Shown piece after piece: positions 7,797 through 29,606 of a stretch of DNA of 33,132 nucleotides. The notes under the pieces are model-generated. The model did not search any database and was not told the origin of the DNA. It saw only the letters and a program-made list of their open reading frames with translations. The position numbers and the translations under genes are program-made. The stretch's first letter is position 1; the number at the start of each line of letters is the position of its first letter. Origin of the DNA: Pseudomonadota bacterium (GTDB lineage Bacteria; Vulcanimicrobiota; Vulcanimicrobiia; Eremiobacterales; Eremiobacteraceae); the NCBI GenBank assembly GCA_021325335.1, contig JAJPHJ010000068.1, forward strand, positions 1 through 33,132. Direction: 5' to 3'.

Positions 7797-8411
7797 TCAC
7801 GCAGCGCTGAGCTGTTTGAGCGCAAGGGCAAGCACGGCCGCAGCCAAGCGCGCGCAGCGCGGCGCTTCCCGCCACAACCACAAGGCCTGCGGCCACAGGC
7901 GCGGATCGGCAACCGCAGTCGCGGGTCGCAGCCACGCAGCCGAGAGCTCTTGATGCGGCGTGTCGAGCACGACGCGCACCGCGGCGAGGGAGAGCGCGCG
8001 CAGCAAACCTGTTTCCATATCGGCGGCGACGAAGCCACGCTCCGCCATCTCGCGCCGAGCATCGCCAGTGACGAGGGTGGAGCTCGTGAGCAAACGCTCC
8101 TGCGACGGCGAGTGACCGAGCTGCAGCGCCGCAGCGACAAGCGCAGCGCTCAATCGTGGATCGCAGGTGATGGTTTGCCCATCGGTCGTGCCGACCTCGC
8201 GCGGTATCACGATCGTTCCGGTCGGCACATCGTTTCGCAGACCACCTGCCAGACCGCAGCTCACAACCATGTCGTACCGTTCGGTGCCCGCCTTCGTCAG
8301 GCCGATGCCCGTCTCGACGACGCGCACGCCCGGGACCGCGCGCCGAACAGAACCCGCCTCGAGGGGAGTCGCCGCGATGACCGTCAGGGCTGCGTTAGTT
8401 GAGGTAACCAT
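7797..8411 (-). CDS. hpnG: HpnG-like hopanoid-associated nucleoside phosphorylase
   Basis: HpnG acts on adenosylhopane, releasing adenine to give the (phospho)ribosyl hopane. The 204-residue product has a PNP/UDP phosphorylase fold outline: VIAATPLEA (11-19), ETGIGLTKAG (33-42), the phosphate-site CGLAGGL (52-58), PTGTIVIP (63-70) and the base/ribose motif VAADMETG (128-135). I chose ATG 8411 because family similarity begins there; it overlaps hpnA by 17 bp, and the reading frame extending further upstream is antisense-like noise within hpnA. The sequence is rather short and divergent. Without the hopanoid genes beside it, it could be called a generic MTA/SAH nucleosidase, so the assignment rests partly on context: it follows hpnH and hpnA directly. 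Confidence 0.82.
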   Translation of the reverse strand: MVTSTNAALTVIAATPLEAGSVRRAVPGVRVVETGIGLTKAGTERYDMVVSCGLAGGLRNDVPTGTIVIPREVGTTDGQTITCDPRLSAALVAAALQLGHSPSQERLLTSSTLVTGDARREMAERGFVAADMETGLLRALSLAAVRVVLDTPHQELSAAWLRPATAVADPRLWPQALWLWREAPRCARLAAAVLALALKQLSAA

Positions 8412-9372
8412 TCGTGCGATACCACGCGACGGCGCCGGCGAGCGCATCGCGCACCGGGCGGGGACGATACGCAAGCTCGCGCTGCGCCTTGGTGCAGTCG
8501 ACATACATCTGCTCGCGCGACATGCGCACGCCCTCGAGCGGCACCACAGGCCGCGATGCGGGGATGACGAGGCAGCGTAGTTCGTCGAGCGTGCCCGCGG
8601 TAAGCGCCACGGCATGCGGGAGGCGTAGCGCTGGTGCAGGGCGGCCGGTCACCTCCGACAACAGCTCCCAGAACCGATCGAACGACACGTTTTCGCCGCC
8701 GACGAGGTAGCGCTCGCGAGGCGTGCCGCGCTGCAGCGCCGCGACGTGGGCCCAGGCGACGTCCTCGACGTCCACGAGATTCAAACCGCCGCCGCTCGGC
8801 CGGGCAGGTATTCGTCCGCGCGCGAAATCGAGCACGACACGGCCGGTCGGCGTCGGCTTCCAGTCGCCGGGGCCGACAGGGGTGGTCGGTAAGACGAGCA
8901 CCACCGGGACCCGCGCGGCCACCGCGGCGCGCTCCTGTTCGAGTTTGGAATGGTGATATGCGGAAGTGCCCGACGCAGCGGCGTAGTCGTTTTCCGTCGC
9001 GGCGACGCCGCGTCTCGCGGGTCCGACCGTGGAACCGCTCGAGGTGACGACGGCGCGCTCGACGCCTGCGACGCGGGCCGCCTCTAAGAGCCCGGCCGTT
9101 CCGGAGACATTCACGCGCGCCATAAGCCTGCGCTCGCGCGGAGCGAATGAGTACAGCGCGGCGCAATGGACGAGAAAGCGGCATCCTCGCATGGCGGCTG
9201 CGAGTGCGCCCGCACTTTCCAGGTCGCCCGTCACGACTTCGGCATCCGGCACGTGCGCGCCGGGGCGGCGCACGAGGGCCCGGATGCGGTAACCTTCGGC
9301 GCCGAGTGCGCGGGCCACGTGGCTGCCGATGAAGCCGGTGGCTCCTGTTACGAAGACGAGGTCACCTGGCAA
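8395..9372 (-). CDS. hpnA: Hopanoid-associated NAD-dependent epimerase/reductase HpnA
   Basis: An extended short-chain dehydrogenase of 325 residues. It starts with the NAD(P)-binding TGATGFIGSH (9-18) and has the catalytic YHHSK (Tyr139, Lys143), with a preceding TSSGSTVG that supplies the catalytic Ser/Thr. HpnA is found in many hopanoid clusters and is annotated as a sugar epimerase or dihydroflavonol-reductase-like protein; its reaction is not firmly established, though a role in side-chain processing is likely. The start is TTG at 9372, overlapping the hpnH stop by 11 bp, with hpnG overlapping its own end. The family similarity starts at once (GDLVFVTGATGF), so this start is reasonable. 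Confidence 0.88.
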   Translation of the reverse strand: MPGDLVFVTGATGFIGSHVARALGAEGYRIRALVRRPGAHVPDAEVVTGDLESAGALAAAMRGCRFLVHCAALYSFAPRERRLMARVNVSGTAGLLEAARVAGVERAVVTSSGSTVGPARRGVAATENDYAAASGTSAYHHSKLEQERAAVAARVPVVLVLPTTPVGPGDWKPTPTGRVVLDFARGRIPARPSGGGLNLVDVEDVAWAHVAALQRGTPRERYLVGGENVSFDRFWELLSEVTGRPAPALRLPHAVALTAGTLDELRCLVIPASRPVVPLEGVRMSREQMYVDCTKAQRELAYRPRPVRDALAGAVAWYRTNGYLN

Positions 9373-10369
9373 GCGCGGCCCGCAGCATTTCTTTCGGTGA
9401 CTTCATCGTCATGTTCACGGCCGTGGGCTCGTAGCCGCAATGCGCCATGCAGTTCTCGCACTTGGGGTGACGCCCGCGCCCGTACTTCGCCCAATCGGTC
9501 TCACCGACGAGCTCGCGGTAGCTCTTCGCGTACGGCTCGGAGGACATGAGGTAGCACGGACGCTGCCACCCCAAGACCGAGTATGAGGGTATGCCCCACG
9601 CAGTGCATGCGAAGTCGACCTTGCCTTCGAGAAAATCCAAATACAAGGGGCTGTGATTAAGACGCCACTTCTTGCGGTTCCCATCCGCGAAGGCTTCCCG
9701 GAAAATGGCGCGGGTGCGCTCGACGCCTAAGAAGTGCTCTTGGTCCGGCGCTCGTTCGTAGGCGAACCCCGGGGCGATCTGCATCTCGTCGACTTCGAGC
9801 TCATCGTTGAGAAAATCGAGCACGTCGCGGATGGAGCGCGCGTCGTCTTGTCCGAAAAACGTCGAGTTCGTCGTCACGCGGAAGCCGCGGCGTTTCGCCT
9901 CGCGTACGGCCTCGACCGCTTGATCGAAGATGCCGGTGCGGCATACCGACTCGTCGTGGCGCTCGCGCAAACCATCGATGTGGACCGACCATGCGAAGAA
10001 GGGCGAGGGTTCGAAGAGATCGAGTTTCTTGCGCATGAGGATGGCGTTCGTGCACAGGTAGACGTAGCGGTGCCGGTCGATCAGCGCGCGCGCGATCTCG
10101 TGGATCTCCCGATGGATGAGCGGCTCGCCGCCGGCGATGGACACGATCGGCGCTTCGCACTCCTCGACCGCAGCAACGCATTGCTCGACGGTGAGGCGGC
10201 GCGCCAAGATGTCGTCGGGCTGTTGGATCTTGCCGCAGCCCGCGCAAGCCAAGTTGCATAGATACAGCGGCTCGAGCTGCAGGACGAGGGCGTAGCGCTC
10301 GATGCCCCGCATCCGCTTGCCGGCGATGTACTTGGCGACGGCCATTTTCTGGGCTAATGGAATGCTCAC
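9362..10369 (-). CDS. hpnH: Adenosylhopane synthase HpnH (radical SAM)
   Basis: HpnH uses S-adenosylmethionine and a [4Fe-4S] cluster to add the 5'-deoxyadenosyl radical to diploptene, giving adenosylhopane, the first step of side-chain extension. In this 335-residue protein the radical SAM cysteines are C38, C42 and C45 in CNLACAGCG. They are followed by SIAGGEPLIH, and the C-terminal SPASM-like part contains KCENCMAHCGYEPTAV. These features and the N-terminal MRGIERYALVLQLEP are characteristic of HpnH. The start is GTG at 10369, overlapping the shc stop as GTGA, with AAAGGGTG just upstream. It lies directly downstream of the cyclase that makes its substrate. Confidence 0.96.
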   Translation of the reverse strand: MSIPLAQKMAVAKYIAGKRMRGIERYALVLQLEPLYLCNLACAGCGKIQQPDDILARRLTVEQCVAAVEECEAPIVSIAGGEPLIHREIHEIARALIDRHRYVYLCTNAILMRKKLDLFEPSPFFAWSVHIDGLRERHDESVCRTGIFDQAVEAVREAKRRGFRVTTNSTFFGQDDARSIRDVLDFLNDELEVDEMQIAPGFAYERAPDQEHFLGVERTRAIFREAFADGNRKKWRLNHSPLYLDFLEGKVDFACTAWGIPSYSVLGWQRPCYLMSSEPYAKSYRELVGETDWAKYGRGRHPKCENCMAHCGYEPTAVNMTMKSPKEMLRAALAR

Positions 10370-12255
10370 GTGCTCACCCTTTCGGCATGACTGTGCCCGC
10401 CACCCGGAGCCTGCGCGACCACGGCGCGATCACCTGCAAGCGCCATCATCGGGAACAGATGTCGGTACATATGGTAGTTGATGTAGAAATCGCCGGGAAA
10501 CCCGGTTCCCGTATGCTCGGGTTCGTCCCAGGTCCCATCCACCTGGCGCTCGCGAAGAAATGCGAGCCCCGACCGGCAGGCGGCGTGCGCGCCGAACCCG
10601 GCGGATTGCAGCGCAAGCACGGCCCATGCGGTCTGCGAGGGCGTGCTCGTGCCGACCCCCGCGAACGACGCGTCCTCGTAGGAGTAGCAGGTCTCGCCCC
10701 AACCGCCGTCAGGATTTTGCGCTGAGACAAGCCAGCGCGCCGCAGCAAGCATCCGGTCCCCGTCGACGTTCAATGCCTCGAGCGCGTCGAGCACGCACCA
10801 GGTCCCGTACACGTGGTTGACGCCCCAGCGACCGAACCACGAGCCGGCCGGCGTCTGCGTCTCTCGAAGGTAGGCGAGACCGCCCGCCACATGGGACTCG
10901 CTTGCCGGGTACCCGAGTGCGGCCAGCATCTCCAACACGTGTGCGGTCACGTCTTCGGACGGCGGGTCGATCATCGCGCCGAAGTCGGCGAACGGGATGC
11001 TGTAGGCGATGCGGCGGGTGTTGTCGCGGTCGAACGCAGCCCAGGCGTTGTTCGTCGATCGCATGGCGAGGACCCAACGCGTCGCGCGTTCGACGGCGAT
11101 GGCAACGCGCTCCCTTCGTCCACCTTCAAGCAAGGCGCAGACGACGACGGCGGTATCGTCGATATCGGGGTACAGGTCGTTGTCAAATTCGAACGCCCAG
11201 CCGCCGCACGGGACGTCCTTGCAGCGCACGGTCCAGTCGCCGTCGCACTCGATCTGCTCGGCGAGCATCCAGTCGACGGCCGACTCAAGCGCGGGATGGC
11301 GCGCGTCAAAACCCGCGGCGTGCAGCGCTCGCACGGCCCAGGCGGTATCCCAAACGGGCGACATGCAGGCGGAAAAGCGCCAGCCGCGATCGTCGCAGAT
11401 CGAAAATCGCTCCATGCCTGCAAGGCCGGCGCGCATGACGGGGTGATCCAGGTCCATGCCTTCAAGGTTGAGCGCGATGAGCGAGTACACCCACGGCGGT
11501 TGAATCCCGCCCCAGCTGCCGTCGGCTTCTTGATGCTCGACGATCCAGCGGGCGACGCGGCGGCGCGCATGGTTGCGCCCGGGCTTGACCGGCGAGCGTT
11601 CGTACAGCTTGAGCAGCTTGTCGAGCCACCAGAAGACCCCAGAGCCTGGTATCTGCGCGAGCCGCTCGTGCGTGCCTGGGACGACGATTTCGGACAGGTC
11701 GACGCCGAGCGGACGCACGGGCCTGTGCGAGATCACGATCGTGAGCGGCGCGATCGTGCCGCGCGCCCAACAGGCGAAATCGTAGAGGTTGAGCGGCAAG
11801 ACGGGCGGCAGGTAGACGAGCTCGGGTGGCATCGTCGGGATGCCTAGCCACGGATATTGACCGAAGAGCGCGAGCCAGATCTTCGTGAATACCCGGGCCT
11901 GCGCGACGCCGCCGAGCCGGGAGATGACCGCGCGCGCGCGGCCCATCGCAGCGTTTGCCGGATCGACGCCCAACACTTTGAGCGCGGTATACGCTTCGAT
12001 GGTGGTGCTCACGTCGGCGGGGCCATTGTGGTACAGCGCCCAGGAACCGTCATCGCGCTGCGCTTGGAGGAGATGCTCTCGCGCGCCGGCACGGATTGGG
12101 TCAAGACTTACCCCGAGAAAGCACAAGAGCAGGACGTGCTCGGCCGTCATGGTCACATTCGTCTCAAGCTCATCCGTCCACCAGCCGTCGGCGTGCTGAT
12201 GTTCCAAAAGCCACTCGGTCGCTGCGTTCAGCGCATCATGCGACAATGGCGACAC
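10366..12255 (-). CDS. shc: Squalene-hopene cyclase
   Basis: A class II triterpene cyclase that folds squalene into hopene/diplopterol at the membrane. The 629-residue protein has the acid motif DIDD (364-367; family DXDD) and several QW repeats, for example QHADGWW (20-26), QRDDGSW (66-72), QEADGSWGG (242-250) and QNPDGGWGE near the C-terminus. Length is typical. The start is taken as GTG 12255, where homology begins (SPLSHDALNAATEWLL); TTG 12249 is an alternative. It overlaps hpnE by 20 bp. The frame stays open further upstream to 12630, but that stretch is Arg/Ser-rich antisense-type sequence within hpnE and is not part of the protein. The position after hpnCDE is consistent. Confidence 0.97.
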   Translation of the reverse strand: MSPLSHDALNAATEWLLEHQHADGWWTDELETNVTMTAEHVLLLCFLGVSLDPIRAGAREHLLQAQRDDGSWALYHNGPADVSTTIEAYTALKVLGVDPANAAMGRARAVISRLGGVAQARVFTKIWLALFGQYPWLGIPTMPPELVYLPPVLPLNLYDFACWARGTIAPLTIVISHRPVRPLGVDLSEIVVPGTHERLAQIPGSGVFWWLDKLLKLYERSPVKPGRNHARRRVARWIVEHQEADGSWGGIQPPWVYSLIALNLEGMDLDHPVMRAGLAGMERFSICDDRGWRFSACMSPVWDTAWAVRALHAAGFDARHPALESAVDWMLAEQIECDGDWTVRCKDVPCGGWAFEFDNDLYPDIDDTAVVVCALLEGGRRERVAIAVERATRWVLAMRSTNNAWAAFDRDNTRRIAYSIPFADFGAMIDPPSEDVTAHVLEMLAALGYPASESHVAGGLAYLRETQTPAGSWFGRWGVNHVYGTWCVLDALEALNVDGDRMLAAARWLVSAQNPDGGWGETCYSYEDASFAGVGTSTPSQTAWAVLALQSAGFGAHAACRSGLAFLRERQVDGTWDEPEHTGTGFPGDFYINYHMYRHLFPMMALAGDRAVVAQAPGGGHSHAERVST

Positions 12256-13528
12256 TCCCGAGCGCGCCCGCAAGCAGCCGCGCGGCCGCCACGCCGCTGC
12301 GCACCGCGGACTCCATGGTGTCGGGCCAGCCGGTGTCCGTCCACGAACCCGCGATGGCGAGATTGGGAAACGACGTTTGCGGGCCCGGCCGCCTTTGCGT
12401 GGGCGCCGGCAGATAGGTCGCTTCCGCGTTGCGAGTGACCGCGCTGCGCACGAGCGTTGCGCCGTGGAGCGCGGGAATCGCCCGCTTGATCTCCTCCCAA
12501 CACCGCTGGCTGACTTCCACCGCAGGCATGCTGACGTAGCTCCGGGCGTCGCTGAGGCTGCAGCACAGATATCCGCTGCCCTTCTCAAAGATCCACTGCA
12601 GCGGCGAATCGAGCACGGCAGCGAAATCAAATCCGAGGCGACCGCGATCGTGCCACAGGTGCACGTCGACGATGGGATACGGCTTGTATCCGTCTAGCGC
12701 CGGCAACCCGATCTGCGTCGCATCGCCCGCCACCCGCGAAAGCTGCGGCGGCGCGAGCGCCAAGACGACCGCATCGAATGCGCGACGCTGGCCGTCGTCG
12801 AGGATGATCCCGTCCACTTCCCCATGCGTGCGCGAATACGACAACCCGGTCACCGGAGCGCTCAGATGGACGCGGGCAACGCTCTCGGCGGCCTTGGCGG
12901 CGAAGCGGGCAAGCGGCACGGTCGCGTATCCGAAGCGCGCCGCTTCTGCCCCGTTGAGAAACGCGGTCGACAAGACGAAGATGGCGTCGGCGGCGCTCAC
13001 GTCTTCGAGCGGCGCATTGAGCGCCGGGATAAAAAATGGACGCCAAAAAGAGCGCAGCGCTTCTTCTCTCTCACCATGAAGCGCGAGCCACTGCGCGAAG
13101 CTTCCTTCACATGGCGGCGTTTCCGCGGCTTTGAGCGTCCGAGCCAGGCGCAGTTTGTCGCGCCATGCGAGGTGGCGATAGCCGAGGAACGATCCGACGA
13201 GGTGCCACGGCGCGGGCAACCCGACGGCGCGCAACCTGCTCGCGACCCCGTCGCGCGAAAAGACCAGCGCGTCGAAGCGCTCCTGCATGCGCACCAAGCT
13301 CGACATGCCGATCCGATCCACGAAGCGCAAGAACTCCGTGCAGCAGCCCAAGAAGACGTGCTGGCCGTTGTCCACCTCGATGCCATCGATGACGAATGAC
13401 GTCGCGCGCCCGCCGAGCAAGCGGCTGCGCTCGAAGAGCTCGACCTCGAAACCTGCCTTCGCGAGATCGAAGCCCGCGGCGAGCCCCGCCAGCCCCGCGC
13501 CGACGACCGCTACCCTGCTTGCAGCCAC
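12236..13528 (-). CDS. hpnE: Hydroxysqualene dehydroxylase HpnE
   Basis: This FAD-dependent amine-oxidase-like enzyme reduces hydroxysqualene to squalene, the last step of the HpnCDE route. The 430-residue product begins with the Rossmann dinucleotide motif VAVVGAGLAGLAAG (GxGxxG at residues 10-15), followed by FERSRLLGGRATS. Its C-terminal FAD motif is NLAIAGSWTDTGWPDTMESA. The start is GTG 13528, preceded by GGTGGAG and overlapping hpnD by 19 bp; the open frame beyond it to 13654 is shadow sequence in hpnD. The HpnCDE system replaces the single squalene synthase used by eukaryotes and some bacteria. Confidence 0.95.
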   Translation of the reverse strand: MAASRVAVVGAGLAGLAAGFDLAKAGFEVELFERSRLLGGRATSFVIDGIEVDNGQHVFLGCCTEFLRFVDRIGMSSLVRMQERFDALVFSRDGVASRLRAVGLPAPWHLVGSFLGYRHLAWRDKLRLARTLKAAETPPCEGSFAQWLALHGEREEALRSFWRPFFIPALNAPLEDVSAADAIFVLSTAFLNGAEAARFGYATVPLARFAAKAAESVARVHLSAPVTGLSYSRTHGEVDGIILDDGQRRAFDAVVLALAPPQLSRVAGDATQIGLPALDGYKPYPIVDVHLWHDRGRLGFDFAAVLDSPLQWIFEKGSGYLCCSLSDARSYVSMPAVEVSQRCWEEIKRAIPALHGATLVRSAVTRNAEATYLPAPTQRRPGPQTSFPNLAIAGSWTDTGWPDTMESAVRSGVAAARLLAGALGSVAIVA

Positions 13529-14355
13529 GACTCCACCACCACATGCAGTTTTTCCATGTGATTGAGCGAGGCCCGAGTGCTCAGCGGCAGCCAAGGATCG
13601 GCCTCGATCTTCGCCAGGATTCGCGCGTAGATCCCCGCCATGGTCTTGACGCACACCGCCGAACGCCGCGGGATGTATTCAAGCAAGCGCAGCCCGGAAG
13701 CATAGAGGCGCGCGGCGCGATCCGCTTGGAAGCGCACGAGCTGTGGCCACGCAGGACCACGCCTCCCTTCGAGCAGGTCGCTCTCCGCGATGCCGAACCG
13801 CGCGAGCTCGTCCTGCGGCAAGTAGATCCGCCCTCGCAGAGCGTCTTCTCGCACGTCGCGGAGGATGTTCGTGAGCTGCAGCGCTACGCCGAGGTCCTCG
13901 GCAAAGTCGAGCGCGACGGCTTCCGAAAAACCGAAGATGCGCACGCACATGCGGCCGACGACCGAAGCCACGAGCCTGCAGTACGCGCGCAGGTCCGGCC
14001 ACGTCGCGTAGCGAGAGCGGTTGAGGTCCGTCTCAACGCCATCGATCAACTCTTGCAGCTCGAGCTCGGGAATCCCATAGCGCGCGATGGCACGTGACAG
14101 CACTTGCGTCACGGGGTCGGAATACTCGCCGCGCATGCAACGGTGGATGCGCAGGCGGCTGGCTTCGAGGCGCGCGCGCAGGTCCGTGCCCACGTGCTCG
14201 TCGACGTCGTCATCGACTTGGCGTGCAAAATCGTAGAGCGCATAGATGGCGGTGCGCTGTTCGTGGGGGAGCGAGATGAAACCCCAATAGAAGTTCTTCG
14301 CGTTGCGGCGCGCCAGCTCGCCGCAGCAGCGCTCGGAGCTTCGCAGGTCGAGCAC
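13510..14355 (-). CDS. hpnD: Presqualene diphosphate synthase HpnD
   Basis: HpnD condenses two farnesyl diphosphates head to head into presqualene diphosphate. From GTG 14355 the protein has 281 residues, normal for the family. It has the two aspartate-rich motifs of squalene/phytoene synthases: DDDVD (48-52, within FARQVDDDVDE) and DVRED (167-171, within NILRDVREDALRGRIYLP). It also has the opening block ARRNAKNFYWGFISLP. The start was chosen because GAGG lies about five bases upstream and homology begins immediately; the frame continues open to 14514, but that part overlaps hpnC. It begins 19 bases after the hpnC stop. The best match is HpnD rather than phytoene synthase because of its hpnC and hpnE neighbours. 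Confidence 0.95.
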   Translation of the reverse strand: MLDLRSSERCCGELARRNAKNFYWGFISLPHEQRTAIYALYDFARQVDDDVDEHVGTDLRARLEASRLRIHRCMRGEYSDPVTQVLSRAIARYGIPELELQELIDGVETDLNRSRYATWPDLRAYCRLVASVVGRMCVRIFGFSEAVALDFAEDLGVALQLTNILRDVREDALRGRIYLPQDELARFGIAESDLLEGRRGPAWPQLVRFQADRAARLYASGLRLLEYIPRRSAVCVKTMAGIYARILAKIEADPWLPLSTRASLNHMEKLHVVVESWLQAG

Positions 14356-14374
14356 GACCGCCTCGCTGCGCTGC

Positions 14375-15223
14375 TCAGGCCGTTTCAAATTTTTTCTCAG
14401 CGCGAACTTCGCGCAAGCTCGAGGCACACGCGCGCAGCACGAGGAGCGCCTTTGTCGCCATGGAGACCTGCGGGCGCCGCTCGTTCGTCGTAAAACCTTG
14501 CCGCGCGATGGCATCGACGATCGCTATGCCTCCGAGGCGATAGAGCGTGAGCTGGACGCGATAGGCGAAGGGCGCCATGGCCTCGAGCTCGACCCCGCAC
14601 GCGAGGAGCTCGCGCGCGCGCTCGCACAGCGATCGCACCGCAAAGGCAGTGCCGCCGGTCCGCAGATCGGACTGCAGGAGATAGCAGCGGCCGCGCGCGG
14701 CATCGCGTGCAACATCTTGCGCGTGATTGGCCAGCTGCAGTCCGACGCAGAGCGCATCGGAGAGCGCGGCCGCCTTGGGGGTATCCAATCCGAAGATCGG
14801 CAGCACCATGCGTCCGACAGGGGCTGCCGACAACTGGCAATAGGCGAGCAGTTCCGGCCAGGATTCGTAGGAGTGGATGGATTGGTCCTGGACGTTCGCT
14901 TCGATCAGATCCAAAAATGGCTGCCGCCCTAACCGATAGCGCCCCACGGTCTGTCGAAGCGCGATGAGCACGGGGTGCACCGGCTGCGCGCCGGCGAAAA
15001 GCGCGGTCACCTCGTCGCGCCAGCGCGCCAGCCGCTCGAGCCCGGCATCGCCGCTCTCGTCTCCCAAATCGTCGGTCGTCCTGCAATAGGCGTAGGTCCG
15101 CATGAGATCGCGCGCCTGAGCCGCGCCCACCAGGCCGCTGACCGCTACGAAATTCTCGTAGTGCCGGCGGGCCAAAAAGCGACAATATTCGTCGGCAGCC
15201 TGCAGCTCGGTGAGCTCGCTCAC
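14375..15223 (-). CDS. hpnC: Hydroxysqualene synthase HpnC
   Basis: HpnC converts presqualene diphosphate into hydroxysqualene. This squalene/phytoene synthase-family protein of 282 residues has DDLGD (51-55) and DVARD (170-174, within NHAQDVARDAARGRCYL) as its metal-binding aspartate motifs, plus LARRHYENF near the N-terminus, typical of HpnC. The start is GTG 15223, overlapping the TGA of the upstream isomerase fusion as GTGA, which indicates tight coupling. The order hpnC-hpnD-hpnE-shc is the classical hopanoid arrangement. Confidence 0.94.
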   Translation of the reverse strand: MSELTELQAADEYCRFLARRHYENFVAVSGLVGAAQARDLMRTYAYCRTTDDLGDESGDAGLERLARWRDEVTALFAGAQPVHPVLIALRQTVGRYRLGRQPFLDLIEANVQDQSIHSYESWPELLAYCQLSAAPVGRMVLPIFGLDTPKAAALSDALCVGLQLANHAQDVARDAARGRCYLLQSDLRTGGTAFAVRSLCERARELLACGVELEAMAPFAYRVQLTLYRLGGIAIVDAIARQGFTTNERRPQVSMATKALLVLRACASSLREVRAEKKFETA

Positions 15224-16761
15224 CGCCCCAGCACCTGAACCACGACGCTGCGCTCGCGCGGCGAGCACAGCTCGATGAGGAAGATGCGCTGCCAGCGGCC
15301 CAGCTCCAGGCGACCGTCGGTGACGGGAACCGTCTCGCTCGAGGACAGGAGCAGATGACGGCAGTGCGCGTGACCGTTGATCGGCTCGTCAGGCGGCGTG
15401 TTGCGCCGTCGCGACAGGTCGTCGTGCTCGTAGAGCCCTGTCGCCGCCGGCACGAGACGGTCGAGCAGGCGCGAGAAATCGCCGAGCAGCAGCTCTTCGT
15501 TCTCGTTGACGCGGATCGCGGCCGTCGTGTGCAACGAGTACACGTGCACGACGCCGTTGCGCACTCCCGACGCTGACAAGACGCTCGCCACGTCATCCGT
15601 GATGTCCACGAACGACCCCGCTTGGCGCGTCTTGTAATGAAGGCGCCCGACCGTCGGCCGCGGAGCCTCGAGTTCTCCGTCGCGCTGCAACCACGAGGTC
15701 TGCTGCAACTCGGCGATCGTGCGCGTGCCGACGGCGAACATGCAGACCCGCAGCACTTCGATGAGCTCGGATGCCAGATCGTGGACCGCGCTGGCGCTTT
15801 GCGCCGCGGCGCGCAAGAAGGGAGCGGCCATGCCCACGAGGTCAGCGCCAAGCGCAACGGCTTTTGCCAGGTCGATCCCGTCGCGGATGCCGCCGCTTGC
15901 GAAGATCAACCCCTCCGGCGCGGCGCGGCGCGCCGCCGTCAATGCAGCGGCTGTTGGAATCCCCCAACCGGAGAACGCGCCGGCCACGCGCGCGCGAACC
16001 GGGTCGCTGATCCGATGGCGTTCGACTTCGCTCCACGACGTGCCGCCGGCACCGGCGACGTCGACCGCGCTGACCCCGGCGTCGAACAACGCCCGGACGA
16101 TGTCCGGGGCGATCCCCCATCCGACTTCCTTGACGACGACCGGAACGTCGAGCGTGCTACAGACGGCCGCGATCTTCGGAAGCAATCCCGAGAAATTCGC
16201 ATCCCCGCCCGGCTGGAGCGCTTCCTGCAAGGCGTTGAGGTGCAACACGAGCGCATCGGCATCGAGTTGCGAGACGAGACGCATGCAATCGTCTGCGTCA
16301 TAGCCGCGGTTGAGCTGCACGGCGCCGAGGTTGGCGAACAGCGCGACATCGGGCGCAAGCTTGCGGACCGCGAACGAGTCGAGCAGATCGGGATGTTCGA
16401 ACAGCACGCGACCGGAACCCAACCCAAGCGCGAGCCCGGCTTCCTGCGCCGCGCGCGCCAAGTTGCGATTGATACGCCGCGCCTCGTCCGTGCCACCCGT
16501 CATGCACGAGATGAGGAGCGGGGCGGCAAGCGCGCGCCCAAAAATGCTCGTCGAGGTCTCGATCTCCGCGAGGTCGACGTCGGGCAGAGCGCGATGGATG
16601 AAACGATAGTCGTCAAAGCCGTTGCCGACGCCCTTGCCGGCTACGTCCGCTTCCAGGTTGATGCGGATGTGATCCGCCTTGCGCGATGCGGTTCCGTCTC
16701 CGCTCGCTTTTGCGGTTTGCAGCTGGCGGCCGTCCTGTCTATCGACACCGACGTGCGACAT
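15220..16761 (-). CDS. fni: Fusion: type 2 isopentenyl-diphosphate isomerase + YjbQ/UPF0047 domain
   Basis: Residues about 20-360 are a type 2 (FMN- and NADPH-dependent) IPP isomerase. Motifs are RKADHIRINL (27-36), CMTGG (86-90), the active-site HLNALQEALQPGGD (174-187), VKEVGWG (210-216), AGAGGTSW (236-243) and the FMN phosphate loop ASGGIRDGID (288-297). Residues about 372-513 are a complete YjbQ (UPF0047) domain: LHTTAAIRVNENE (410-422), YEHDDL (444-449), NGHAHCRHLLL (462-472) and RLELGRWQRIFLIEL (484-498). The His/Asn/Glu metal-site residues are kept. A linker at 355-371 joins them, with no internal start or ribosome site at the junction. The isomerase supplies DMAPP for the neighbouring polyprenyl synthase and squalene genes. 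The YjbQ role here is unknown; the family shows weak thiamine-phosphate synthase activity. Start ATG 16761 overlaps the upstream gene by 23 bp. Confidence 0.92.
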   Translation of the reverse strand: MSHVGVDRQDGRQLQTAKASGDGTASRKADHIRINLEADVAGKGVGNGFDDYRFIHRALPDVDLAEIETSTSIFGRALAAPLLISCMTGGTDEARRINRNLARAAQEAGLALGLGSGRVLFEHPDLLDSFAVRKLAPDVALFANLGAVQLNRGYDADDCMRLVSQLDADALVLHLNALQEALQPGGDANFSGLLPKIAAVCSTLDVPVVVKEVGWGIAPDIVRALFDAGVSAVDVAGAGGTSWSEVERHRISDPVRARVAGAFSGWGIPTAAALTAARRAAPEGLIFASGGIRDGIDLAKAVALGADLVGMAAPFLRAAAQSASAVHDLASELIEVLRVCMFAVGTRTIAELQQTSWLQRDGELEAPRPTVGRLHYKTRQAGSFVDITDDVASVLSASGVRNGVVHVYSLHTTAAIRVNENEELLLGDFSRLLDRLVPAATGLYEHDDLSRRRNTPPDEPINGHAHCRHLLLSSSETVPVTDGRLELGRWQRIFLIELCSPRERSVVVQVLGR

Positions 16762-17797
16762 AATGCGTCACCTCGAGGAACTGGTCGATGTGCTGACGGG
16801 GAAGCCCGCTCGTCTCCACGATGCGCGCCGCCCTGTCAGCAAAGTGTTGTGATGCGCCGCGGGTGAGGTCGGCTCCGCCTGCCGCTTCGAGCAATGCCCG
16901 AATCTCAGGCATGCGGTCACCCGTCCCGCGTGGCACCGCGAAAAGCTCGCGCAGTTGCTCCCGCTCGCGCTCGCCCATCGCCGCGTAGCCGGCCACGACG
17001 GGAAAGGTCAGCTTGCAGCGGCCCAAGTCGCCGCTCGAAGATTTTCCTGTGATCGCAGAGTCGCCCCACGTGCCCAGCCAATCGTCGCGGATCTGGAAGG
17101 CGACACCGAGCAACGTGCCTGCGTGGGCCAGCCGCGCGGCAAGCGCGCTGTCGGCGCCCGCCATGACCGCTCCCGCTTGCAGGCTGGCTCCGATCAATGC
17201 TCCGGTTTTCGCTCGAACCATGCGCAGGTAAGCGCGCAGCGGGGTTTCGGGTTTGCCTTCAAAGCGCAGGTCGAGCGACTGACCTTCGACGACGACGAGC
17301 ACCGCATTCGCGATGAGCCGCGCCGCGCGTAACTGGCGCTCGGGATACTTGCCGTCCGCCGCCGTCAGCGTCGCGAAGGCCTTGGCGAACAAGGCGTCTC
17401 CCGCATTGATGCCCTGCGCGAGGCCCCACACCGCCCACACCGTGTCGCGGCCTCGCCGGCTGCGATCGCCGTCCTGAATATCGTCGTGCACGAGCGTGAA
17501 ATTGTGCACCCATTCGAGTCCGGCGGCAGCCGGAAGCGCCGTCTCGGCTGGGCTGCCGCACGCCTCGCAGGCCCACAGGCAAAGGGCCGGGCGTAGGAGC
17601 TTGCCGGGCGAGCCCTGCAAGGGTCGACCGCTTTGATCCGTCCACCCCATGTGGTACGCGATCATCTTCGAGCTGAAAGAGCCGTTGACGGGCGCTTTTG
17701 CTCGCAGCTGCCCGACGATCGTGTCGGTGTAGGAGGTCAAGATCGATGGATTGCCGTCACCACCGCTCGTCGCGCCTGCCAGCGTCTCGTAGGCCAC
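16739..17797 (-). CDS. Short-chain polyprenyl diphosphate synthase (class I trans-isoprenyl synthase)
   Basis: This enzyme condenses IPP with allylic diphosphates, most likely giving farnesyl or geranylgeranyl diphosphate. The 352-residue product has GKLLRPALCL (65-74), the first aspartate-rich motif DDIQD (105-109) followed by RSRRG, EGQSLDL (171-177), and a second motif FQIRDDWLGTWGD (234-246). The last is the DDxLGxxGD variant common in some high-GC phyla rather than DDxxD. The start is GTG 17797, chosen for the strong TAGGAG seven bases upstream; the frame is open beyond it but lies in the intergenic region. It is the first gene of the long run. Position before the squalene genes argues for an FPP supply, but product chain length is not settled by sequence reading. 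Confidence 0.93.
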   Translation of the reverse strand: MAYETLAGATSGGDGNPSILTSYTDTIVGQLRAKAPVNGSFSSKMIAYHMGWTDQSGRPLQGSPGKLLRPALCLWACEACGSPAETALPAAAGLEWVHNFTLVHDDIQDGDRSRRGRDTVWAVWGLAQGINAGDALFAKAFATLTAADGKYPERQLRAARLIANAVLVVVEGQSLDLRFEGKPETPLRAYLRMVRAKTGALIGASLQAGAVMAGADSALAARLAHAGTLLGVAFQIRDDWLGTWGDSAITGKSSSGDLGRCKLTFPVVAGYAAMGEREREQLRELFAVPRGTGDRMPEIRALLEAAGGADLTRGASQHFADRAARIVETSGLPRQHIDQFLEVTHYVARRCR

Positions 17798-17804
17798 GTG
17801 GGAA

Positions 17805-17810
17805 CTCCTA
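17805..17810 (-). promoter_or_regulatory. Ribosome binding site deciding the start of the polyprenyl synthase
   Basis: TAGGAG on the minus strand lies seven bases before the GTG at 17797. It is one of the clearest Shine-Dalgarno sites in the window and excludes the longer open frame that runs to 18043. Confidence 0.8.
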
Positions 17811-18010
17811 AGAGGCTCGGGCCTGCATACGAATGGAAGATGAAAACGATGATGGACGGGTAACCTGTCTGCAGTCCAAGTGCGTTGCGTTTCTTTTGTC
17901 GGACCCACATCCCTCCGCAGCTTCCGGCAAGACAAGCACCTCTTATAGAAGAAAAAAACTGCTGCGCGCGCTGTGCTCCGCGTCAACGAAATGCGACCAA
18001 TCGCCGCATC

Positions 18011-18024
18011 GTACCATTCGGTAC
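18011..18024. promoter_or_regulatory. Inverted repeat GTACC-ATTC-GGTAC, possible operator
   Basis: Perfect 5-bp arms (18011-18015 and 18020-18024) flank a 4-base spacer, 36 bases before the hpnJ start. The size and position would suit a regulator site, but a short palindrome like this can arise by chance. Confidence 0.3.
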
Positions 18025-18059
18025 CGTGAAGCGCTTGGTTCAAAGGAAGTTCCGGGGTT

Positions 18060-19538
18060 ATGGAAATGTCTCAGTCGATGAAGACGCTATTTGTGAACCC
18101 GCCGAGTTTCGAGGGTTTTGACGGCGGAGCTGGCTCTCGCTATCAAGCGCGCCGCGAGATCCGCTCGTTTTGGTACCCCACGTGGCTCGCTCAGCCGGCA
18201 GCCATGGTGCCGGGAAGCCGATTGATCGACGCGCCACCTGACGGACTCACCGTCGAAGAAGTCGCGCCGCTGGCCAAGGACTACGAGCTCGTCGTCATGC
18301 ATACGAGCACGCCTTCGTTTCACAACGATGCGAAGTTCGCCGCCCGGTTGAAACAAGAAAATCCGGATGTCATGGTGGGAATGGTCGGCGCACACGTCGG
18401 CGTGCTGCCGCTGGAATCGATGAAGGCCGCACCCGCGGTCGATTGGATGGCCCTCGGAGAATTCGATCACATCTGCCTCGACATCGCCTCGCACAAGCCG
18501 CTCGAAGAGACGCCGGGCATCATCTTCCGCCGCGGCAGCAGTATCGAATACACGCCGAAGCGGCCGACCCTCGAGGACATGGACTCCCTGCCCACGGTCA
18601 TCGAGGTGTACAAGCGCGACCTGACCGTTGAAAATTATTTCATCGGCTACTTGCGACATCCATATCTATCGCTTTACACCGGCCGAGGCTGCCGCTCGAA
18701 GTGCACTTTCTGCCTCTGGCCTCAGACCGTCGGCGGTCACGTGTATCGCGTCCGCAGCGTGGCCAGCGTCGAAGCCGAGATGACGCTCGCGAAGAAGTAT
18801 TTCCCGCAGGTCCGCGAGTTTTTTTTCGACGACGACACGTTCACGGACGATCTGCCGCGCGCCGAGGAGATAGCGCGCCGCTTGGGGCGTCTCGGATTGA
18901 CGTGGTCCTGCAACGCGAAAGCCATCGTGCCGCGCAAGACGCTCGAGATCATGAAGGCGAACGGCCTGCGCCTCTTGCTCGTCGGATACGAATCGGGGAA
19001 CCAGCAGATCTTGAACAATATCAAGAAGGGCGTGCGCCTCGACATCGCCCGGCGCTTCTCGCGCGATTGCCGGGAACTGGGCATCACCGTCCACGGCACG
19101 TTCATCGTCGGTCTCCCCGGGGAGACAACCGAGACCATCCGCGAGACGATTCGCTTCGCCTGCGAGGTCGAGCCTGAAACGATTCAGGTGTCGCTCGCGG
19201 CACCGTATCCCGGCACCGAGCTCTTCCGGCAGGCGCAGGAGCAAGGCTGGCTATCGATTCAAAGCGATGGCCTCGTGGACGATCACGGCATCCAAGCCGC
19301 AGCGCTCAACTATCCGCACCTCAGCTCGACCGTCATCTTCAACTCGCTCGACGAGTTCTATCGCAGGTTCTACTTCCGGCCGCGCAAGATGATCTCACTG
19401 TTCGGCGGCATGCTGCGCGACCCGCAAGTCATGAAGCGGCGCTTACGCGAGGGCGCGGAGTTCTTCAAGTTCCTGCGCGAAAGAAAGAACCCCCACGCGG
19501 AGGGGGTTGATGCGAAGATCCCTGCCGCGGTGGGTTAG
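18060..19538 (+). CDS. hpnJ: Hopanoid biosynthesis radical SAM protein HpnJ
   Basis: HpnJ is a B12-binding-type radical SAM protein required in other bacteria for cyclitol-ether modification of bacteriohopanetetrol. The 492-residue product begins with the characteristic MKTLFVNPPSFEGFDGG and SRYQARREIRSFWYPTW blocks. The N-terminal part (about 1-190) is the cobalamin-binding-like domain. The radical SAM cysteines are C211, C215 and C218 (CRSKCTFC), followed by the GYESGNQQIL and HGTFIVGLPGET motifs of the barrel. I used ATG 18060 with AAAGGAAG about 10 bases upstream; ATG 18066 or 18078 are alternatives. Its usual partners HpnI and HpnK are not in the window. It overlaps ispH by 4 bp at the 3' end, tail to tail. 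Confidence 0.94.
   Translation: MEMSQSMKTLFVNPPSFEGFDGGAGSRYQARREIRSFWYPTWLAQPAAMVPGSRLIDAPPDGLTVEEVAPLAKDYELVVMHTSTPSFHNDAKFAARLKQENPDVMVGMVGAHVGVLPLESMKAAPAVDWMALGEFDHICLDIASHKPLEETPGIIFRRGSSIEYTPKRPTLEDMDSLPTVIEVYKRDLTVENYFIGYLRHPYLSLYTGRGCRSKCTFCLWPQTVGGHVYRVRSVASVEAEMTLAKKYFPQVREFFFDDDTFTDDLPRAEEIARRLGRLGLTWSCNAKAIVPRKTLEIMKANGLRLLLVGYESGNQQILNNIKKGVRLDIARRFSRDCRELGITVHGTFIVGLPGETTETIRETIRFACEVEPETIQVSLAAPYPGTELFRQAQEQGWLSIQSDGLVDDHGIQAAALNYPHLSSTVIFNSLDEFYRRFYFRPRKMISLFGGMLRDPQVMKRRLREGAEFFKFLRERKNPHAEGVDAKIPAAVG
19480..19508 (-). terminator. Probable intrinsic terminator of the ispH operon, inside hpnJ
   Basis: On the minus strand AACCCCC, a 7-base loop and GGGGGTT form a perfect 7-bp stem (19488-19494 with 19502-19508), followed by CTTTCTTT (19480-19487). 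It starts about 27 bases after the ispH stop and lies within the last codons of hpnJ on the other strand. Confidence 0.6.
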
Positions 19539-20386
19539 ATCGCTTCTGCTTGCGGGAACCAGTCCATCAACTGGTCGATGACGTCGTCCGCCAAGAATCC
19601 GGGCGTTGAAGCGCCGGTCGCGATGCCCACGCGCTCGTCGCCGCAAAACCAATCGCGCTGCAGATCTTCGGGTTTCTCGATCAAGTAGGCTTTGCTGCCT
19701 TGCGTCTGCGCGATCTCGGCCAGGTGACGCGTGTTGGCCGACTTCGAACCACCGATGACGATCATCGTGTCCACTTCAGAGGCGAGGTCTTGGGCTGATT
19801 TCTGGCGCCCTTGCGTGTCCGAGCAAATCGTGTTGAAGACGCGGGTCTCGTAGTTCATCGCCGAGATCTTCCCGACGAGCTCGCGGAACTTGTCTCCGTT
19901 CAGCGTGCTTTGGGACACGATCGCGATGCGCCGGGCCTTGCGGATCTGGGTGTCGTCTGCCGGCCATTCGTTGAGGATGATGGCGCCTGGCGCGTGGCCT
20001 GCGATGCCCTTGACTTCCGGGTGGTTCGGGTCGCCGAGGATGACCACCGTGCGCCCCTCCTCGGACAGCCGCTTGGCGAGCCGCTGCGTGCGCGTGACCA
20101 TCGGACAGGTGGCGTCTACGACGCGCAGACCTTTGGACTCGGCCGCCTCGATCGTCTGCGGGGGCAAGCCGTGCGCGCGGATGAAGAGCGTTCCCGACTC
20201 GATGTCTTCGAGCGAGTCGACGTTGTGCAGTCCTTTGTCTTCGAGTTCCTTGACGATGAGCGGGTTGTGCACGATGTTGCCCATCGTGTGGACGTCGCTG
20301 CGTTCGGCCGTCTCCGAGAGGGCCTTCTTATACGTCAGCTCAACGCCGAAGCAGAACCCCTGAGTCCGCGCTTTTTGTATCTGCAT
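19535..20386 (-). CDS. ispH: 4-hydroxy-3-methylbut-2-enyl diphosphate reductase
   Basis: IspH carries out the last step of the DXP (MEP) pathway, reducing HMBPP to IPP and DMAPP with a [4Fe-4S] cluster. The 283-residue protein has the three cluster cysteines C12 (GFCFGV), C94 (DATCP) and C188 (NTICSDT). It also has the substrate histidines in MGNIVHNP and IRAHGLPP, the GDPNHPEVKG loop, and the TGASTPG motif. It makes the C5 units used by the isomerase and polyprenyl synthase across the divergent region. ATG 20386 lies inside the 3' end of plsC (47 bp overlap), with GGAGAGG just before it. Confidence 0.97.
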   Translation of the reverse strand: MQIQKARTQGFCFGVELTYKKALSETAERSDVHTMGNIVHNPLIVKELEDKGLHNVDSLEDIESGTLFIRAHGLPPQTIEAAESKGLRVVDATCPMVTRTQRLAKRLSEEGRTVVILGDPNHPEVKGIAGHAPGAIILNEWPADDTQIRKARRIAIVSQSTLNGDKFRELVGKISAMNYETRVFNTICSDTQGRQKSAQDLASEVDTMIVIGGSKSANTRHLAEIAQTQGSKAYLIEKPEDLQRDWFCGDERVGIATGASTPGFLADDVIDQLMDWFPQAEAI

Positions 20387-21673: not shown

Positions 21674-21752
21674 CAGGTATGTGGGTTCGGGCTTGCGAGC
21701 ATGCGACCTTGGTTGCCGGAAGGCGCACGGGGCGAGCCGAACATCGTCGCCG
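21674..21752. promoter_or_regulatory. Divergent intergenic gap between cmk and hutH
   Basis: This 79-bp gap must hold the promoters, or at least the leader, of both the cmk operon and hutHU. I found no clear -35/-10 pair, palindrome or strong Shine-Dalgarno sequence for either gene. Confidence 0.4.
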
Positions 21753-23285
21753 ATGCAGACCAAGCCTATCGTGGAGATCGACGGCACCAATCTCTCATTA
21801 GAACTGGTGCGACGCGTTGCCGTCGATGGCGCGCGCGTCGGACTGCATCCCGAAGCGCTCCCTCGAATCCGGTCGGCTCGCGAGGTCGTCGAGCGCGCGG
21901 TGGCGTCAAACGGGCGTATCTACGGAGTGACGACCGGATTCGGCAGGTTGAAAAACGTCAAGATAGACGCCGACGAGGCGACCGAGCTGCAGCGAAACCT
22001 GATCCTCAGCCACGCAAGCGGGGTGGGCGAGCCGTTGCGCCGAGACGCCGTGCGCGCGAGCATGCTCTTGCGAGCACACTCGCTCGCACGCGGGTATTCC
22101 GGCGTCCGCGTCGAGCTCATCTCGCTCCTGCTCGACATGCTCAACCGCGACGTCGTGCCGGTCATCCCGGCACAAGGCTCCGTCGGCTGCTCGGGTGATC
22201 TCGCGCCGCTCGCTCACATGGCCCTCGTCCTCATCGGCGACGGAGAGGCCTGGGTGGGCGGCGATCGCCTCGCCGGCCGCGCCGCGCTCGAGCGCGCAGG
22301 CTTGGAGCCGCTGACGCTTTCGTTCAAGGAAGGCCTCTCGCTGATCAACGGCACGCAGATCATGACCGGGGTAGGGGCGCTCGCGCTCCAACGCGCGCGC
22401 GTGGCGCTCAAAGCGGCCGATGTGACCGGCGCCATGAGCCTCGAGGCCTACTTCGGCACGGACGCGCCGTTCCAAGAGCGGATCAACGCGCTGCGCCCAC
22501 ACTCCGGTCAAGCGCGCGCCGCTCACAACGTTCGTCGCCTGCTGCAAGGCTCGGGCGTGCTGGCTTCGCATCGCGACTGCGAGCGCGTGCAGGACCCGTA
22601 CTCGTTTCGCTGCATGCCGGTGGTGCACGGCGCCACGCGTGATGCCGTCGAATTCGCGGCGAACACCCTCGACATCGAGATCAACTCCGTCACCGACAAT
22701 CCGATCATCTTCGCCGAAGACGGATCGCTTGTCAGCAATGGAAACTTCCATGGCGCGCCGGTCGGATTGGCGCTCGACTTCGCCAAGATCGCGCTGACCG
22801 ACGCCTCCTCCATCGCCGAGCGGCGAGTTGCGAAACTGCTGGACGGCGACGAGGGCCTACCCCCGTTCTTGACCGAGCGCTTCGGCCTGTGCAGCGGCTA
22901 CATGCTTGCGCAATACACCGCTGCCGCGCTCGTGAGCGAGAACAAGGTGCTCTCCACGCCCGCGTCCGTCGATTCGATCCCGACCTCCGCTGGTCAGGAA
23001 GACCACAACAGCATGGGCACGATCGCGGCGCGGCACTGCGCCTCGGTCGTCGAGAACTACGAGACCGTCATCGCGATCGAACTGCTCGTGGCGGCACAGG
23101 CGCTCGATTTTCGCAGCTCGCTGTCGTTCGGCAACGGCACCGCCATCGCGCATCGGCTGCTGCGCGAGCGCGTCGCGCACCTGGATCGTGACCGCGAGCT
23201 GAGCCGAGACGTCGCCGCGGCCGTGGAGCTCATTCGCTCCGGCGCGCTCGTCGACGCGGTCGAGCGCGAGCTCGGAGCGCTCTGA
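21753..23285 (+). CDS. hutH: Histidine ammonia-lyase
   Basis: HutH removes ammonia from histidine to give urocanate, the first step of histidine degradation. The 510-residue protein has the catalytic Tyr57 in [10 protein letters not shown] and the [17 protein letters not shown] block that forms the MIO cofactor. In this copy the cyclising triad is Cys146-Ser147-Gly148 rather than the usual Ala-Ser-Gly; the serine and glycine needed for MIO are kept. Other family blocks are VTDNPI and [14 protein letters not shown] 21753 was chosen because homology starts there; the frame is open from 21681 in the divergent gap. hutU follows four bases after the stop. Confidence 0.95.
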
Positions 23286-23289
23286 GCGT

Positions 23290-24948
23290 ATGAGCTCCGT
23301 ATCTGCGGCCCGCGTCGTGCGCGCGCCTCGGGGCTCGAACCGCACCTGCCTCGGGTGGGGGCAGGAAGCCGCCATGCGCATGCTCATGAACAACCTCGAC
23401 CCCGAGGTCGCAGAGCGGCCGCAGGATCTGGTCGTGTATGGGGGCAGCGGTCGCGCGGCGCGCTCGTGGGATGCCTACGACGCCATCGTGCGCACGCTGC
23501 AGCGCTTGCGCAACGACGAGACTCTGCTCGTGCAATCCGGAAAGCCTGTCGGCGTCTTCGCGACGCACGAAGCCGCGCCGCGGGTATTGCTCGCCAACTC
23601 GTTGCTCGTGCCGGCGTGGGCCAATTGGAAGGTGTTCCGGGAACTCGAGGCCGCCGGGCTGACCATGTACGGCCAGATGACCGCGGGTTCGTGGATCTAC
23701 ATCGGCACGCAAGGCATCCTGCAGGGGACCTACGAGACGTTTGCGGCGCTTGCGCGCAAGCACTTCGGCGGCAGTTTGCGCGGGAAGATCACGCTGACGG
23801 CGGGGCTGGGCGGGATGGGCGGCGCACAGCCTCTCGCGGTCACGATGAACGGCGGCGTTGCGATCGTCGTCGAAGTGGATGCCGAGCGCATCCGCCGGCG
23901 CATCGAGGGGCGCTATTGCGACGAAGCCGCCACGAGCGTCGACGACGCTCTCGCCCGGGCGCAGGGGGCCGCGAAAGCCGGCCGCGCGCTGTCCATCGGC
24001 TTGCTCGGCAACGCGGCCGAGGTTTTCCCCGAGCTGCTCGGCCGGGGCGCGCCGATCGACGTCGTCACGGATCAGACCTCTGCGCACGACACGCTCAACG
24101 GCTACGTGCCGGCCGGGCTCTCGCTCGAGGGTGCGAACGAGTTGCGCGAAGAGGATCCGCAGCAGTACGAACGCCGCTCGCTCGAATCGATCGCGGCTCA
24201 CGTGAGCGCGATGAACGGTTTTCTGCGCAAGGGTGCGGTCGTGTTCGACTACGGCAACAACATCCGCGCGCAGGCGGCCGCTGCGGGAGTCAAAGACGCG
24301 TTCGACTTCCCCGGGTTCACCCCGGCTTACATCCGCCCGCTCTTCTGCGAAGGGAAAGGGCCGTTTCGATGGGCCGCGCTCTCGGGCGATCCCGCGGACA
24401 TCGCCAAGCTGGACGATGCCCTGCTCGAAACATTCCCGGACGACGCGCATCTGCGGCGCTGGATAGAGCTCGCCCGAGAGCGGGTCAAGTTTCAAGGGTT
24501 GCCTGCCCGCATCTGCTGGCTCGGATACGGCGAACGCAAGGCCTTCGGTCTGCGCATCAACGAGCTGGTCAAGCGCGGCGAACTCGCGGCGCCCATCGTC
24601 ATCGGGCGCGATCACCTCGATTGCGGTTCGGTCGCCTCGCCCTATCGGGAGACCGAGGCGATGAAGGATGGTTCGGACGCGATCGCCGATTGGCCGATCC
24701 TCAACGCGCTGCTCAATGCGGTCGGCGGCGCTCATTGGGTTAGCGTCCACCACGGCGGTGGGGTGGGCATTGGTTACTCCATCCACGCCGGCATGGTGGT
24801 CGTTGCGGATGGTTCCGAGGATGCGGCCGCCCGGCTTGGCCGCGTGCTCACGACCGATCCCGGGATCGGCATCGTGCGCCACGCGGATGCCGGCTATGAC
24901 GAGGCCCGGGCCGCGGCCGACCGCCACGGCATCGACTGGAAACTGTAG
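23290..24948 (+). CDS. hutU: Urocanate hydratase
   Basis: HutU adds water to urocanate to make imidazolonepropionate, using tightly bound NAD+. The 552-residue protein has the NAD-binding [12 protein letters not shown] (172-183) and the urocanase signature [10 protein letters not shown] (401-410), in which C409 is the active-site cysteine. It also has the downstream [15 protein letters not shown] block (441-455). Length matches the family. It starts four bases after hutH and is certainly co-transcribed with it. A GAF-GGDEF gene follows after 43 bases on the same strand. Confidence 0.97.
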
Positions 24949-24991
24949 GGACGAAAATACCTCGCCGGAACAGCCGATACAAAGAGGGATG

Positions 24992-26837: not shown

Positions 26838-26844
26838 CGGCCGA

Positions 26845-28839: not shown

Positions 28840-29606
28840 GAGGGGCGGCGCTTGTCCAAGAAAGCCCGCAGCCCTTCTTGCCCTTCTGCGCTGACCCGCT
28901 GCGCCGCGATCCGCTCGGCGGTCCACTGCCGAGCGTCGCGGGCGTCCTTCTTGCCCACGGTCCGGGCGATTTTCTTGGCGAGCCTGGCCGCGCTTGGACC
29001 GCTCGTCAGCAGCTCGTGCAGTTTCGGCGAAACGAAGACATCGAGTTGCCCTGGCGGCACGATCTCGTGCGCGAGGCCGATGCGCAGCGCGCGCTCCGCG
29101 TTGAAACGCTCGGCGCTGGGAAAGAGCGCGCGCGCGTGGCTTTCTCCGATCTTGCGGATGACGAATGGCGAGATGACGGCGGGCACGATGCCGAGCTTTG
29201 CCTCCGTGAAGCCGAAGAGCGCGTCTTCTTCTGCGATGACGACGTCGCACACCGCGACGATGCCCGCGCCCCCGCCGAGCGCCGCGCCCTGCACTTTGGC
29301 GAGCGTCGGACACGGGCAGTCGTCGATTGCCGCGAACATATCGGAAAGCCGCAAAGCGTCTTCCATGTTCTCCTGCTCGGAAAGATCGAGCGCCGCGCGC
29401 ATGTAACGGATATCCGCTCCGCCGCAAAAGATCGCACCGGCGCCTTCGACGACCACCGCGCGAAGCGCATCGTCGCGGGCGAAACCGGAGAAGGCCGTGG
29501 TGAGCTCGGCGATGGTCGTCGCGTCCAAGGCGTTGCGCACCTCGGGGCGGTTGAGCCGTACCGATGCGACGTTTCCTTCCCTTGTCACGACGACAGAAGC
29601 GGACAT
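28827..29606 (-). CDS. liuC: Enoyl-CoA hydratase, probably methylglutaconyl-CoA hydratase (LiuC-type)
   Basis: A crotonase-fold protein of 259 residues, likely hydrating 3-methylglutaconyl-CoA to HMG-CoA. It has RLNRPEVRNAL (17-27), the oxyanion-hole blocks FCGGADIRYM (60-69) and GAALGGGAGIVAVCD (107-121), and FTEAKLGIVPAVISP (133-147), where Glu135 is the likely catalytic acid. The first glutamate of classical crotonases is replaced by glycine (GGGAGI), as in LiuC-like hydratases. ATG 29606 was chosen for a perfect AGGAGG five bases upstream; the longer frame to 29753 lies in mccB. Its position between mccB and mccA fits the liu operon order. Confidence 0.9.
   Translation of the reverse strand: MSASVVVTREGNVASVRLNRPEVRNALDATTIAELTTAFSGFARDDALRAVVVEGAGAIFCGGADIRYMRAALDLSEQENMEDALRLSDMFAAIDDCPCPTLAKVQGAALGGGAGIVAVCDVVIAEEDALFGFTEAKLGIVPAVISPFVIRKIGESHARALFPSAERFNAERALRIGLAHEIVPPGQLDVFVSPKLHELLTSGPSAARLAKKIARTVGKKDARDARQWTAERIAAQRVSAEGQEGLRAFLDKRRPSWHE

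Follow-up and report, generated by a model that had tools for sequence, protein, structure and literature searches.

YjbQ (UPF0047) proteins are found in bacteria and archaea, and many crystal structures of them exist. To our knowledge, they have no agreed physiological role, and the sole activity reported for them is that of a weak thiamine-phosphate synthase. The other described systems closest to the locus analyzed here are the type 2 isopentenyl-diphosphate (IPP) isomerases (IDI-2; TIGR02151; PDB 2zrv and 1vcf) and the hpn clusters of hopanoid synthesis. As far as we know, solved IDI-2 proteins are single-domain, and neither an IDI2-YjbQ fusion nor the stand-alone YjbQ of Bipolaricaulota and Chloroflexota clusters is among the named hpn genes.

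The window, i.e., the whole 33,132-nucleotide stretch of DNA that was analyzed, contains the gene set of the hpn clusters (HpnA, C, D, E, H, J and squalene-hopene cyclase, SHC) around a gene that joins the first two families. Its product resembles IDI-2 in its full-length domain, invariant positions and predicted fold, but differs from the solved enzymes in carrying an extra C-terminal YjbQ domain. That domain is like other YjbQ proteins (TIGR00149, PF01894; PDB 1ve0, 1vph and 1vmj) in its full profile match and in histidines 411, 446 and 466, but neither ordinary YjbQ nor the PDB relatives shown have its insert with R451 and E459 or its H464, C467 and H469, and it is joined to IDI-2. The original prediction knew of no described fusion of the two families, and no description was found in the literature searched; nor, in the same literature (papers open without subscription), was any link of YjbQ to isopentenyl or heptaprenyl enzymes. 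Both domains belong to known families, and it is the IDI2-YjbQ fusion, a second fusion of YjbQ to polyprenyl diphosphate synthase (PPS), and a motif-defined subfamily that appear to be undescribed as far as that literature shows.

The fusion gene and its operon

The fusion gene (15220..16761, minus strand) is one open frame that runs from ATG to TGA, and its translation covers 513 codons without an internal stop; the original prediction was exact in coordinates, strand and length. Both families score over their curated cut-offs. The IDI-2 domain (residues 27-358; 15688..16683, minus strand) reaches 396.1 bits against the NCBIfam model TIGR02151 (cut-off 281.3), contains the HLNALQE active-site block (residues 174-180; 16222..16242, minus strand), and keeps all 70 positions that are invariant in 44 unfused IDI-2 relatives, in line with conserved substrate and FMN sites. 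It is thus predicted to be an intact FMN-dependent isomerase of IPP and DMAPP. A linker (residues 359-373; 15643..15687, minus strand), defined by the gap between the profile matches, leads to the YjbQ domain (residues 374-512; 15226..15642, minus strand), which scores 108.3 bits against TIGR00149 (cut-off 67.75) and 117.7 bits against PF01894 (cut-off 27), in the latter case over the full profile, 1-117. Within it lie HTT (residues 411-413; 15523..15531, minus strand), of which H411 is one of three histidines universal to the family, NENE (residues 419-422), and NGHAHCRH (residues 462-469; 15355..15378, minus strand), which combines the universal H466 with the subfamily-specific H464, C467 and H469. 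The profile bounds bear out the claim that a complete IDI-2 and a complete YjbQ share one protein, and every motif that had been named, including NGHAH (residues 462-466), was found.

Structure prediction had been proposed as a check, and AlphaFold gave a confident model of the whole fusion protein (mean pLDDT 89.3, pTM 0.77), with a dip in confidence around residues 361-370, i.e., within the linker. The predicted model has the IDI-2 fold, its best Foldseek match in the PDB being the Sulfolobus shibatae IDI-2 (2zrv) with a TM score of 0.88 by target; the Foldseek matches listed are IDI-2-like folds and bear on the IDI-2 part, not on the YjbQ domain separately.

The gene lies in an operon, all on the minus strand, in the order PPS, IDI2-YjbQ, HpnC, HpnD, HpnE, SHC, HpnH and HpnA. 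Upstream is the PPS gene (16739..18043; PF00348, 194.6 bits), given here as the longest open reading frame, the real start of which is probably further in; the top NCBIfam match of this PPS is a family 2 encapsulin cargo model, at 295 bits and below the cut-off of 450. Downstream are hpnC (14375..15268; PF00494; TIGR03464 at 217.6 bits, below the cut-off of 250.45), hpnD (13510..14514; TIGR03465), hpnE (12236..13654; TIGR03467), SHC (10366..12630; TIGR01507), hpnH (9362..10369; TIGR03470), and a sugar epimerase gene resembling hpnA (8395..9372; TIGR03466 at 324.5 bits, below the cut-off of 367.65); the TIGR matches given without a score are over their cut-offs. Divergent from the operon is hpnJ (18060..19538, plus strand; TIGR03471 over cut-off), beyond which lies ispH (lytB) for the last enzyme of the MEP pathway (19535..20386, minus strand; PF02401, 283.9 bits). 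The fusion gene shares its first 23 bp (16739-16761) with the end of the PPS gene, and its own stop overlaps hpnC by 49 bp for the frame as listed or by 4 bp if hpnC begins at its likely start, the GTG at 15223-15221. Overlap with both neighbors and membership of an isoprenoid/hopanoid unit, as originally predicted, are both upheld, and the fusion is a genuine two-domain protein within a hopanoid operon. Farther along the window, positions 21681-33130 hold histidine degradation genes (histidine ammonia-lyase, urocanase, formiminotransferase and amidohydrolase) and, on the opposite strand, a biotin carboxylase/carboxyltransferase/HMGL-like set; no link of this region to the fusion is visible.

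Distribution and origin of the fusion

An in-frame IDI2-YjbQ fusion was found in 16 further genomes, or 17 with the window. Three more members of the window's family have the entire fusion, at 68-70% identity. When named genomes were scanned with only the YjbQ domain as the query, the 80 nearest loci were returned, 13 of which have IDI-2 in the YjbQ frame; three of the 13 are the members of the window's family, and two are only partly visible (L073 contains N and a break, and L136 begins at a contig end). Three more fusions (G269, G591 and G252) were added by a survey of 400 genomes from the Chloroflexota-type phylum of G160, in which the fusion is rare (9/400) and many other genomes have IDI-2 alone. 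The original prediction was that either a frameshift or missed stop at 15640-15690, or relatives in which the two genes are always separate, would speak against it; the frame is open across this suspected linker in relatives that are 63-70% identical over their full length, and the 16 further genomes have the two joined. Although the window is one of 149 contigs in a fragmented assembly, a false joining of two genes by misassembly or frameshift has next to no probability and is refuted by the same in-frame architecture in other genomes, which are separate assemblies; because 16 of them carry it, the fusion is not a sequencing error.

By an RpoB tree, the hosts of the fusion are Eremiobacterota, Chloroflexota and one third lineage, comprising Centralia 45, 47 and 233, which is sister to Chloroflexota with 83% support, two of the three being fragmentary. 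Two genomes labelled Proteobacteria (L069 and L071, Centralia_MAG_338 and _67) are placed with Chloroflexota in this tree, and their labels look wrong. Within the window's family, the fusion occurs in all four genomes with an SHC over cut-off and in none of the ten without one. In families f2 and f3 of the window's class, IDI-2 either separates PPS from HpnC or lies immediately upstream of HpnC, and the hopanoid clusters contain IDI-2 and no YjbQ of the fused type. By this gene order, the YjbQ domain sits where IDI-2 meets HpnC, and since these clusters do without it, a YjbQ of this type is not required.

A first tree placed the fused IDI-2 domains as one cluster nested in Eremiobacteria, a result that was lost when more unfused Chloroflexota sequences were included. 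In the fuller IDI-2 tree, fused rows are intermixed with unfused ones and a single fusion origin is not rejected (p-AU 0.147). On these sequences, a single origin is neither rejected nor shown, and no direction of transfer is claimed.

A divergent YjbQ subfamily and its neighbors

Of 129 YjbQ domains placed in a tree, 105 form a group (SH-aLRT 91) that contains the fused ones; the other 24 are ordinary copies, mostly second copies in the same genomes, that of the window included. A group-wise comparison of columns defines an insert of about 10 residues (residues 449-460; 15382..15417, minus strand), the core of which (451-454) is missing from all 24 ordinary copies; the alignments shown with YjbQ proteins of the PDB have a gap in this region. 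In isoprenoid-linked rows, R451 is conserved at 98% and E459 at 100%; H464 (100%), C467 (92%) and H469 (92%) are specific to the subfamily, giving NGHxHCxH in place of one histidine, whereas H411, H446 and H466 are at 100% in all three YjbQ groups compared. The loop thus departs from the canonical length of ordinary copies and solved structures, but the family cut-off is still passed. Judged by its sequence, the fused YjbQ is a divergent subfamily set by the insert and NGHxHCxH, and its additional invariant residues suggest that the active site is altered.

The 80 nearest loci were picked on YjbQ sequence only, and 48 of them are isoprenoid-linked: the 13 fused to IDI-2, and 35 that lie no more than 5 kb from a gene for hopanoid synthesis, PPS or IspH. 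Only 1 of 24 ordinary YjbQ has an isoprenoid neighbor (Fisher p 7e-7, which overstates the evidence because the rows are related); this sole exception, in an Acidobacteria-labelled genome (L161:4993-7539), is near IDI-2-like and HpnA-like genes. The commonest upstream neighbor of stand-alone subfamily members is IspH, typically overlapping. In Bipolaricaulota, the order is SHC-IspH-YjbQ, usually with overlapping frames and in some genomes followed by HpnC-D-E; at 16 loci, in Bipolaricaulota (e.g., L109:5426-5884), a DUF116 gene follows the YjbQ of this arrangement. Some Chloroflexota have SHC-YjbQ-HpnC/D, and in others YjbQ lies about 70-120 bp after PPS.

A second fusion, which places YjbQ at the N-terminus of a PPS, occurs in one class of Chloroflexota, in about 35 of the 110 genomes: about 30 have it over its whole length or as far as the contig reaches, and five more show it as two pieces in one frame. 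Examples are L155:5016-6395 (plus strand), L145:1014-2441 (minus strand) and L209-L234, and Pfam and NCBIfam matches in two genomes confirm the architecture. Most of these genomes also have a separate PPS match. A UbiE methyltransferase gene adjoins this fusion; a TetR gene and a small upstream open reading frame without a Pfam match are also beside it.

Other neighborhoods are more varied. In three genomes of 7-8 Mb from the same phylum (L047, L050 and L051), subfamily YjbQ is near a UbiD decarboxylase gene, as confirmed by Pfam in L047; UbiD requires a dimethylallyl-derived flavin, and this neighborhood may be a further isoprenoid link of the subfamily. At L048:4783-6615, YjbQ lies between genes that, by eye, resemble MtnB and MtnC of methionine salvage. 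The remaining 32 of the 80 loci have no isoprenoid neighbor, and include a block of 15 from soil Chloroflexota. A role of YjbQ in isoprenoid metabolism, as originally predicted, therefore gains much from the second fusion type and the stand-alone genes in hopanoid operons; the link holds for one subfamily and not for YjbQ in general, given the ordinary paralogues and the unlinked loci.

One fusion has a decayed partner. In a Chloroflexi genome (HOG27; L070:3894-5414, plus strand), a 512-codon frame in a hopanoid operon carries an IDI-2 in which 16 of the 70 invariant positions are changed (R27S, H31A, H174R, G240D, T241P and others), whereas the other fusions have 0-3 changes. The YjbQ motifs of this protein are intact, and the genome has a second IDI-2 (L162, 363 bits). 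Because the IDI-2 has decayed beside an intact YjbQ in a genome with another IDI-2, the pattern of changes suggests that YjbQ is kept for a function of its own.

Candidate functions of the YjbQ domain

From the fusion, the subfamily and its contexts, we infer with moderate confidence that these YjbQ domains act in isoprenoid metabolism as histidine-site enzymes, probably metal-dependent, on prenyl diphosphates or their by-products. The group acted on would be the diphosphate moiety of IPP, of DMAPP or of a short allylic prenyl diphosphate; alternatively, the substrate would be a by-product formed when these compounds are used. The chemistry would be hydrolysis or of an ionization type, with YjbQ acting beside the prenyltransferases that consume these diphosphates. 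The partners IspH, IDI-2, PPS and HpnC/D share a pool of substrates (IPP, DMAPP and allylic diphosphates) but no single reaction, which leaves more than one candidate substrate for YjbQ. The thiamine-phosphate synthase reaction displaces pyrophosphate (PPi) from a benzylic-type diphosphate, which is chemically akin to allylic prenyl diphosphates; as the weak reaction of YjbQ is of this kind, a prenyl-diphosphate substrate is plausible. A more specific version, which we offer tentatively, is that the NGHxHCxH subfamily is an unrecognized isoprenoid enzyme with a new prenyl-diphosphate reaction, which serves hopanoid and prenyl-chain synthesis and was wired in by two fusions. Such a reaction might be the controlled conversion of DMAPP or an allylic diphosphate to the monophosphate, or the repair of a dead-end prenyl diphosphate.

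The subfamily might instead be a general housekeeping or metabolite-repair enzyme, with isoprenoid metabolism as one frequent use and no dedicated substrate. The 32 loci in other contexts fit this, as does the finding that all close phylum relatives examined (L046-L059) are elsewhere, e.g., near UbiD or a diaminopimelate/ornithine-type decarboxylase; however, two different fusions, both to isoprenoid enzymes, and membership of hopanoid operons across phyla make it somewhat unlikely. YjbQ and IDI-2 each form oligomers, and with YjbQ fused at opposite termini to two enzymes of one pathway, the domain could be imagined as a non-catalytic scaffold, the oligomer of which clusters IDI-2 or PPS into a metabolon. 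We consider this improbable because the residues that resemble an active site do not vary and the subfamily has further ones, many members are stand-alone, and YjbQ persists in L070, where its IDI-2 partner has decayed.

Removal of PPi by YjbQ, pulling the prenyltransferases and squalene synthases forward, would suit PPS, HpnD and HpnC, all of which release PPi and are fusion partners or neighbors, yet IDI-2 and IspH, respectively a fusion partner and the commonest upstream neighbor, yield none, and the proposal is decidedly unlikely. A thiamine-phosphate synthase that supplies thiamine diphosphate to DXS of the MEP pathway is less credible still. Dxr matches in all 38 genomes tested (35 over cut-off) indicate that this pathway is used, and overexpressed YjbQ replaces ThiE in Escherichia coli and is a weak thiamine-phosphate synthase (work cited in PMC11551756). 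The neighbors of YjbQ are, however, late isoprenoid genes and not thi or dxs. ThiC was found in 6 of 22 genomes checked, all six with ThiE, and every genome of the 22 below the ThiE cut-off is without ThiC; there is thus no ThiE gap wherever ThiC occurs, YjbQ fills none, and it is no stand-in for ThiE. A thiamine role of the fused YjbQ is accordingly disfavored.

Returning to the preferred reading, an enzyme acting on prenyl diphosphates, two fusions and repeated operon membership point one YjbQ subfamily at prenyl-diphosphate metabolism, which narrows the question of YjbQ function to a few candidate substrates of one small, soluble domain. If this reading is true, the synthesis of hopanoids and of polyprenyl chains (probably quinone side chains) in Eremiobacterota, Chloroflexota and Bipolaricaulota would gain an enzyme that is so far unannotated.
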